The notes under the pieces were generated by a model. That model was not told the DNA's origin and searched no databases. It saw only the letters and a list, made by a program, of their open reading frames with translations. A program made the translations under genes and the position numbers. Of a stretch of DNA of 55,549 nt, positions 54,768 to 55,549 are shown piece by piece. The DNA lies in the NCBI GenBank assembly GCA_018716625.1, contig DVJQ01000021.1:1-55549 (forward strand), written 5' to 3'. This DNA comes from Candidatus Galligastranaerophilus intestinavium (GTDB lineage Bacteria > Cyanobacteriota > Vampirovibrionia > Gastranaerophilales > Gastranaerophilaceae). The first letter of the stretch is position 1. The number at the start of each line of letters is the position of its first letter.

Positions 54768-54795
54768 TTGACTTGTGAGCTTGAATTGGTATTAT
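54768..54795 (+). promoter_or_regulatory. Promoter TTGACT-16-TATTAT upstream of an RNA candidate
   Basis: -35 TTGACT at 54768-54773, a 16-base spacer, -10 TATTAT at 54790-54795. The expected start of transcription is about 54802. It drives the GC-rich segment and tRNA-Phe. Confidence 0.65.
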
Positions 54796-54801
54796 AGTGT
54801 T

Positions 54802-54877
54802 ATCGGCTTTCGTGCTTGGCATGTCGGAAGGCACAACCCTCGGGTGGTGCAGGCAAAGCTGAAACCAAAGTCCGGAC
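54802..54877 (+). ncRNA. GC-rich structured-RNA candidate
   Basis: This stretch is clearly richer in G and C than its surroundings and has no good reading frame. It folds on paper. A closing helix CGGCTTT (54804-54810) pairs with AAAGCTG (54855-54861), and inside it is a hairpin GCACAACC-CTCG-GGTGGTGC (54831-54850, one A-G mismatch). It ends in AAAGTCCGGAC, recalling the conserved 5' core of RNase P RNA (G-A-G-G-A-A-A-G-U-C-C), but the rest of an RNase P RNA is not visible. It could be a truncated rnpB, a leader of the tRNA transcript or an unknown RNA. The identity is open, and the 3' end is arbitrary. Confidence 0.4.
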
Positions 54878-55010
54878 AAATTAAATAAGTGATTTGCCGC
54901 GTTAGCCCTTGTTGAGTGAAACGAAACAAGAATATATTAAAAATTCACCAACTGAGCTAACAAGGATTTGAAAATTAAATAAATTGATTTGCCGCGTTAG
55001 CTCAGTTGGT
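54878..55010. repeat. Partial direct and inverted copies of the tRNA-Phe 5' half
   Basis: AAATTAAATAA, then TGATTTGCCGCGTTAGC, occurs at 54878-54906 and again at 54972-55001, where it runs into the tRNA (one-base length difference). Between them ACCAACTGAGCTAAC (54947-54961) is the exact reverse complement of tRNA bases 54996-55010. The first copy departs from the tRNA after GTTAGC. The inverted copy could pair with the D-arm of the tRNA in a long transcript. Confidence 0.75.
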
Positions 55011-55063
55011 AGAGCAAGGGACTGAAAATCCCTGTGTCCTTGGTTCAATTCCGAGACGCGGCA
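54991..55063 (+). tRNA. tRNA-Phe (anticodon GAA)
   Basis: 73 bases. The acceptor stem GCCGCGT pairs with ACGCGGC plus discriminator A. The D-loop reads AGCTCAGTTGGTAGAGC, the anticodon stem-loop GGGACTGAAAATCCC carries GAA, and the T-arm has GGTTCAATTCC. CCA is not encoded. A T-run follows directly and probably acts as terminator. Confidence 0.95.
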
Positions 55064-55549
55064 TTTTTTGTGGGATTTTAAAATTACCTTGTGTAATCTG
55101 TGGGTAATTGTTCTCATGAACAAATGTAAAGAAACAGGACAATACAGAAAAAGGGAACTTGCCTCAAAGCCCCTCTGTGTAAAAGAATTTTAGAATAATT
55201 TAGGGTTACAGAAAAGTCCGGTATGTCCGATTTTAGGGACTATTATACTCATAAATATATAAAAAGTTTGTAATAATATGCCCTAAAACCTTATTTTCGT
55301 AAGATAGCACCCGAATACAAAAATAGGACTTTTGCTATCAAAAAAGTAACACAAATTCCGTAAAAAATATTTTTCTGCCACAAAACGGAACCTTAACGGA
55401 ACTTTTTTGCGGAACCAAACGGAACCAGCAATTTTATGTATAAAAATATGGAGTATCATGTTCTGTAGTTTTTCTTATATATCTAAAAAATGATTTGATA
55501 AAACGCTTTAGTAAATCAGGGAAAGTATCCATATTTTTGAAATAATATT
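55064..55549. other. Region after tRNA-Phe without a recognisable gene
   Basis: 486 bases of AT-rich sequence at the right edge, with no reading frame I would defend. It contains small inverted repeats (AATTACC/GGTAATT near 55080-55110, AGTCC/GGACT near 55217-55243) and a block of CGGAAC repeats listed separately. It may be the upstream region of a gene beyond the window or the edge of an element inserted at the tRNA. Confidence 0.5.
55386..55426 (+). repeat. Four CGGAAC repeats at near-helical spacing
   Basis: CGGAAC occurs at 55386, 55397, 55410 and 55420, i.e. at steps of 11, 13 and 10 bases, three of the four continuing to CGGAACC. Same-face, same-direction copies are typical of a protein-binding array (iteron or integrase arm sites). 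Confidence 0.7.

Follow-up and report, generated by a model that had tools for sequence, protein, structure and literature searches.

Why is an intact tRNA gene preceded by partial copies of itself? The window, a stretch of 55,549 nt from Candidatus Galligastranaerophilus intestinavium, ends shortly behind a tRNA-Phe gene whose leader contains a sense copy of the tRNA 5' end and an antisense copy of its D-arm. The observation is real and larger than the original prediction had it. Our best explanation is that this tRNA-Phe transcript is one of a family of tRNA leaders acting in cis, present in the Gastranaerophilales.

The tRNA-Phe locus and its repeated unit

The tRNA-Phe(GAA) gene was identified on the forward strand, as were all features of the locus described here, at positions 54991-55063 (Rfam RF00005, 69.7 bits) and by ARAGORN at 54990-55064. 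The putative promoter of the tRNA transcript is a sigma-70-like consensus match, TTGACT-16-TATTAT, at 54768-54795. The match by itself is at chance level (one found, 1.0 expected), but congeners carry the same TTGACTT...TATTATA sequence ahead of their units. A promoter-proximal leader with a GC-rich hairpin region follows (leader 0, 54800-54894), ending in a degenerate BoxA, GGACAAATTAAATA (54874-54887). The GC-rich segment had been proposed to be foldable; it is present, but the predicted folding of 54800-54885 is no better than that of shuffled sequences (z = -0.43; 56 of 200 shuffles equally good). The stretch 54802-54880 is conserved only in the own genome (G000) and in G010, and the reading of it as a conserved structured RNA was rejected on both grounds. 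In several other genomes leader 0 is different, yet a BoxA-like motif is located at its end there too. The original prediction had made its case depend on conservation in relatives, which nearly fails for 54802-54880 and is found for the unit.

The unit is the repeated 95-nt block 54896-54990. It starts with P, GCCGCGTTAGC (54896-54906), a sense copy of nucleotides 1-11 of tRNA-Phe that follows the tRNA of its own species. The core hairpin CTTGTT-GAGTGAAACGA-AACAAG (54908-54930) has a loop that recurs, on different stems with compensating changes, in the units of Phe, Leu, Thr and Asp. Segment A, ACCAACTGAGCTAAC (54947-54961), is antisense to the D-arm region and complementary in 15 of 15 positions to tRNA nucleotides 6-20, GTTAGCTCAGTTGGT (54996-55010); this is the inverted copy that had been noticed at first. 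The loop between A and the tRNA contains the BoxA-like motif TTGAAAATTAAATA (54968-54981), which was also present in the 16S rRNA leader of genome G045. The truncated direct copy with its upstream flank was found as described: 54875-54906, the tRNA's leader plus its first 11 nt, has 81 % identity over 32 nt to 54970-55001, with a start-to-start spacing of 95 nt.

The unit motif was identified as BoxA from its likeness to the known consensus and from the presence of CTTTGAAAATTGAATA ahead of the 16S rRNA gene of G045, an order-level relative, where the BoxA-like TTGAAAATTGAATA is located about 110 nt before the 16S rRNA gene (L201). A search for 16S in the own MAG gave no hit, so that the BoxA agrees with "the organism's" rRNA leader in a comparison with G045 only.

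Above the gathering score, the Rfam 15 scan of the locus yielded only the tRNA family RF00005; weaker matches such as mir-3473 stem from the inverted repeat itself. The likeness to RNase P RNA suggested in the original prediction is rejected: RF00010 did not match at the gathering or a relaxed threshold, and an intact class A rnpB is encoded elsewhere in the genome (G000:C56:26076-26540, 185 bits).

The contig ends 485 nt past tRNA-Phe; this terminal part (window 55065-55549) is AT-rich, lacks a long open reading frame and is possibly a repeat or an integrated element at the break. The own genome has two tRNA-Phe loci, on contigs C69 (10993-11169) and C76 (the window), both near a zinc-type dehydrogenase gene whose product ends in ...GEAIKVLLEN. 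This gene directly precedes the promoter on C69; a reverse open reading frame of 124 amino acids intervenes in the window.

Units across tRNA genes and genomes

Of the 35 tRNA genes of the own MAG, listed with RF00005, 18 have a unit. An antisense of at least 9 nt to the own tRNA was located upstream of 16 of the 35: Phe (twice), Val-tac, Val-gac, Ala-tgc, Arg-ccg, Met, Asp, Asn, Trp, Gly-tcc, Ile, Pro-cgg, Leu-gag, Leu-caa and Leu-tag. At fMet and His, a P copy is accompanied by a weak antisense, and the remaining tRNA genes among the 35 (Thr, Lys, Cys, Ser, Glu, Tyr, Leu-taa, Gly-gcc etc.) have neither P nor antisense. In general, a unit is composed of P, a core hairpin, in most cases A, and a BoxA-like motif ahead of the tRNA, and the sequences of A and P vary with the tRNA so as to fit the gene they precede. 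The unit-bearing genes include the second tRNA-Phe (C69) and a tRNA-Val (C15, two units). A strict BoxA pattern preceded 14 of the 18 unit-bearing genes versus one of the 17 others, and this lone exception (Asp, C26) has a partial unit.

Antisense to the own tRNA of at least 9 nt was observed in 14 of 30 leaders, while 0.27 of 30 were expected from shuffles. When the leaders of the own genome were swapped among its tRNAs, the observed fit was never reached in 5000 permutations (p <= 0.0002), and dinucleotide-shuffled leaders gave an own-tRNA antisense of at least 12 nt in none of 3000 trials. For G285, a genome of another genus, the permutation test alone was weak (p = 0.07). Over all, A has at least 11 matches to its own tRNA in 60 distinct leaders with 20 anticodons, a set that includes three leaders from one Bacteroidales (Mediterranea) genome and some related leaders. 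Units without clear antisense are located at fMet, His, Ile (L069) and Val (L088), and these speak against our best explanation. Simple units at Arg (L081, L097, L131) and Met (L169, L170) are plain 5' partial tRNA copies that include the anticodon arm and lack the T-arm, followed by BoxA; antisense is absent. They possibly represent an early stage of unit evolution.

An action in trans has to be considered, in which units cut out of the transcript would serve as antisense RNAs or as sponges for tRNAs or other RNAs. The sponging of small RNAs by external transcribed spacers is known from tRNA operons. Lying upstream of the tRNA, the units are placed to be transcribed before it and would be set free by RNase P, and A is complementary to the mature tRNA. 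However, the fit of A is better to its own downstream tRNA than to others, rather than being directed at a common outside target, a folded tRNA offers a poor target in its D-arm, and the start of P at tRNA nucleotide 1 suits a competition in cis for the acceptor strand. A trans-acting role is therefore considered improbable.

Within the genus, the region was matched in 14 of 15 genomes, own included, and most of these 14 have one to four tandem units ahead of tRNA-Phe at a spacing of about 89-98 nt. The same 15-mer antisense recurs in relatives. Units within one locus are nearly identical, and the copy number varies between close relatives. Other genera of the order have homologous tandem units in one to four copies too, and the tRNAs concerned are partly different. 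These observations come from MAGs with broken arrays. Among 244 good genomes of a class-wide sample, a BoxA-spacer-tRNA pattern was detected in 46, from 14 genera of one family, and the reversed pattern in none. An inverted D-arm followed after 22-52 nt by the D-arm of a tRNA was detected in 31 of the 244 genomes (11 genera), again with no reversed pattern; nearly all of these loops contained a BoxA-like sequence. All but one of these genomes belong to the same family and one to another family of the order, and the pattern was absent from the other orders of the class in this sample. A tRNA-Ala case was observed in G048, of a third family of the order, while G045, from a sister family, showed no units among its tRNAs. 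G285 has units at Lys-ttt (18 nt antisense) and Leu-tag (15 nt) and P copies at Ile and Thr-ggt. The set of unit-bearing tRNAs thus differs between genera, which is unusual for an essential control and a second point against our best explanation.

Outside the order, only isolated cases were encountered, at three tRNA-Gly genes of a Mediterranea MAG and at a single tRNA-Ala gene in each of two Oscillospiraceae MAGs from termite guts. A survey of two of these three genomes did not show the full unit at their other tRNAs. The Gly-Leu cluster of the Mediterranea massiliensis MAG (L132; contig SUXZ01000001.1, 1-800) has three tRNA-Gly(gcc) genes with one or two units ahead of each, composed of a 36-nt 5' copy, an anticodon-arm antisense and TTTGAAAATTGAATA, the same architecture in Bacteroidota. 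In the termite-gut MAGs (L106, L117; reverse strand near the contig start), one or two tRNA-like partial copies precede tRNA-Ala; complementary ends close them, and a BoxA-like motif is present. The leader of a tRNA-Ser(cga) in another Oscillospiraceae genome (L320, G321) has a degenerate tRNA-like copy about 76 nt upstream that shares 13 nt with the tRNA, then CCAATTTAATAT. Pattern matches in Acinetobacter, Lachnospiraceae and others outside the Gastranaerophilales are mostly without P and A.

Partial copies beside intact tRNA genes recall the insertion and excision scars considered in the original prediction. An element would integrate in the D-arm or anticodon arm with its own leader and tRNA 5' end, and after its loss the 5' fragments would stay upstream. 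The leader-bearing 5' fragments upstream of intact genes are those expected for an element carrying a 5' part, several array contigs end in the repeats, and such events may underlie the tandem 5' copies. They do not account for the antisense made for each tRNA or for the recurrent core hairpins and their conservation, none of which are excision products. Neither an element nor an integrase or displaced fragment was seen beside the units. When the own genome and 58 relatives were searched at the DNA level, the copies found were located at tRNA genes or contig ends, and in IMG/VR only 12 contigs matched the BoxA-tRNA pattern. Scars of mobile elements are a quite unlikely source of the units.

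Conservation of the unit and two predicted folds

P corresponds to the cognate tRNA from nucleotide 1 to about 11-19. At tRNA-Phe it tracks the tRNA of the species as GCCGCGTTAGC, GCCGCAATAGC or GGCGCGTTAGC, the latter two in other genera. A runs without interruption, and its match to the tRNA persists in units whose P has diverged or is split by an inserted hairpin. In all 15 Phe units compared, which come from four genera, the same 12 nt of A are invariant, while the spacers flanking A average 61 % and 64 % identity; BoxA reaches 91 % and is kept in register across units. In the Phe alignment, a change of the tRNA from CGUUAGC to CAAUAGC is mirrored in A. Among the transitions in A mismatches, those keeping a G-U pair were observed (A>G three, C>T three) and the opposite ones were not (G>A and T>C zero), in small numbers. 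Two positions of A are unpaired in the isolated unit in 9-11 of the 15 sequences and still invariant, which points to the tRNA as pairing partner.

The core loop GAGUGAAACGA and its close variants were found on differing stems in 17 leaders, compared with 0.56 in shuffles; the controls gave one in reversed leaders and four on the other strand. Its stems at Phe units are CTTGTT/AACAAG, TTGGTT/AACCAA, TCGGTT/AACCGA and AGGC/GCCT, and elsewhere TATCC/GGATA (Leu), TCGGC/GCCGA (Thr) and TTGCC/GGCAA or TTGAC/GTCAA (Asp). A second common core, CTCTGCCGA-stem-GAGAGG, is k-turn-like and occurs at five tRNAs in several genera: Ile (L068, L069, L137), fMet (L037), Val (L088), Ala (L060, L140) and Thr (L205). 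Read as a k-turn, its GA/GA flanks are conserved, the outer stem not always. The Asp units of G252 (L280) and G289 (L281) read GGGATCGTAGCCCC...AACCAACTGAGCTACAACCCG, with A reaching into a near-complement of the acceptor 5' strand. By eye, CUGAUGA...GAAA in some A variants suggested a hammerhead ribozyme, but most units lack it and stem II is missing. Integron attC-like hairpins, raised by the GTTAGC...GCTAAC arms, were rejected as well; cassettes are absent, and the wobble bias points to the RNA strand that is transcribed.

The strongest rival explanation is neutral: partial tandem duplication of the leader with the 5' end of the tRNA, combined with template-switch (snap-back) synthesis at the hairpin of the D-arm, would create P-hairpin-A units of little or no function, and unequal recombination between the identical 5' copies would multiply them. 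The origin of the units may well lie in such copying. They are arranged in tandem, nearly identical per locus, variable in copy number and patchy over tRNAs and genera; the plain 5' copies at Arg and Met lack antisense, and the tRNA-Gly of Bacteroidales (L132) and the P-type tRNA-Ala cases of Oscillospiraceae (L106, L117) are isolated. As an account of the units as a whole it is fairly unlikely. By-products would not be expected to keep A invariant over four genera while its neighbours diverged, to retain the core loop on compensated stems at different tRNAs and BoxA in register, or to affect about half of the tRNA genes of one genome. That both A and the core hairpin are conserved speaks for a reason to keep the units.

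In all 54 sequences of unit plus tRNA, the predicted minimum free energy structure was 4-18 kcal/mol below the unit folded alone plus cloverleaf, in RNAfold energies that ignore tRNA modification, tertiary contacts with Mg2+, proteins and the co-transcriptional order. In most of the 54, the predicted alternative fold pairs P with the 3' acceptor strand of the tRNA and A with its 5' half; the D-arm is lost, and the anticodon and T arms stay largely intact. Both helices were present in the predicted minimum of 60 of 88 candidate units, a list that includes some chance hits from other phyla. On the Phe alignment (15 sequences), the alternative fold pairs 99.8 % of the cells with six compensated pairs, and its covariation was 0.100 versus 0.046 in shuffles, with slid controls far lower. 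The competing fold, P:A plus the native acceptor stem, fits the same 15 sequences equally (99.5 % of cells paired). The models thus predict two mutually exclusive folds, both conserved, as required for a strand exchange. Because P copies the tRNA, covariation cannot separate the two; compensated changes between P and the acceptor strand, and in the part of A that also pairs with P, are for the same reason no proof of A:tRNA pairing in the cell. The conserved property is, in these predictions, the ability to form both folds. The predicted minimum cannot be the usual outcome, because a leader that always misfolds an essential tRNA would be lethal.

The pairing of P with the tRNA 3' strand as an acceptor stem, looping out the sequence up to the second 5' copy, resembles an intron in the predicted fold: P would be the 5' exon, and the rest of the unit and the second 5' end would be spliced out. 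But the P segments of Trp, Arg-ccg, Pro-cgg, Gly-tcc and the C69 Phe gene have acceptor or D-arm changes that would spoil a tRNA, the downstream tRNA is already complete and the unit is too short for a group I or II intron. We regard splicing as highly improbable.

Of the ideas in the original prediction, a masking of the precursor tRNA by the inverted copy emerged as the best supported: the antisense shows conservation, is specific to its gene, occurs at many tRNAs and would, by prediction, displace the native fold. On balance, the units are probably conserved functional cis leaders acting on the folding or maturation of the tRNA.

A candidate leader switch and related systems

From these features we infer a regulation by the units. 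In the proposed mechanism, A would pair with P in a first fold and leave the tRNA to form its cloverleaf; in a second fold, A would pair with the 5' half of the tRNA and P would take over the role of the tRNA 5' strand in the acceptor stem, which would block normal RNase P processing and maturation. The winning fold would be set during transcription, when the nascent tRNA can be trapped by the leader. The order of transcription would favour P:A first, and the tRNA 5' end would then compete for A. The BoxA in the loop between A and the tRNA, perhaps held on RNA polymerase by NusB-S10, might decide the fold, as an RNA held on the polymerase at BoxA would hinder A:tRNA pairing. Tandem copies of the unit may tune the effect. 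For E. coli rRNA, NusB-bound boxA has been proposed to anchor the leader near the RNA polymerase exit, so that the leader meets the trailer (PMC10250234). A coupling of the leader switch to BoxA is rather doubtful. Only tentatively do we suggest the wider picture of lineage-wide cis RNA switches, in which tRNA genes have custom mimics and antisense of their own product; entry into the cloverleaf, and with it tRNA supply, would thereby be controlled during transcription and coupled via BoxA to the machinery making rRNA.

Promoters and decay are commonly regarded as the points at which tRNA synthesis is regulated. The proposed switch looks like an undescribed mode of control of tRNA production; no description of such leaders was found in the open text of PMC. 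If the mechanism is true, a leader that reroutes tRNA folding and is built separately for every tRNA would add a new level of control in widespread uncultured gut bacteria, and it raises the questions whether the folding of a pre-tRNA can act as a switch and whether the BoxA machinery of rRNA governs tRNAs too. If the units are neutral, they are still striking as recurrent, structured tandem duplications at tRNA genes.

Several known systems share parts of this architecture. T-boxes are, like the units, cis leader RNAs built around pairing with a tRNA, but they precede protein genes and read tRNA charging in trans via the anticodon and the CCA end; the units are located upstream of tRNA genes, and a T-box was rejected as the locus had no match to it in Rfam. 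The tandem repeats of E. coli tyrT, the Rfam family rtT RNA, are located in a tRNA operon and contain a tRNA piece each. This likeness is limited, as rtT repeats hold the 3' end of the tRNA, lie downstream and are without antisense or BoxA, and rtT did not match at the locus. Insertion scars and split or disrupted tRNA genes in archaea also place partial tRNA copies beside an intact gene; no element was seen here, and the inverted copy and the conserved hairpins would stay unexplained. The strand exchange of riboswitches and attenuators is matched by the segments P, A and T, with P:A and A:T mutually exclusive. In contrast to these systems, the regulated element here would be a mature RNA instead of a terminator or ribosome-binding site, and the sequence is custom for each gene; a sensor, ligand or protein partner was not found for the units. 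The leader-trailer system of the E. coli rrn operons (PMC10250234) has BoxA shortly upstream of a stable RNA, as the units have with the BoxA-like TTGAAAATTNAATA, a motif that the 16S leader of G045 shares; in both systems hairpins precede BoxA, and the 5' flank of the stable RNA has to pair with the 3' end. The units differ from it in that BoxA precedes single tRNA genes and that the leader contains a copy and an antisense of the gene product.
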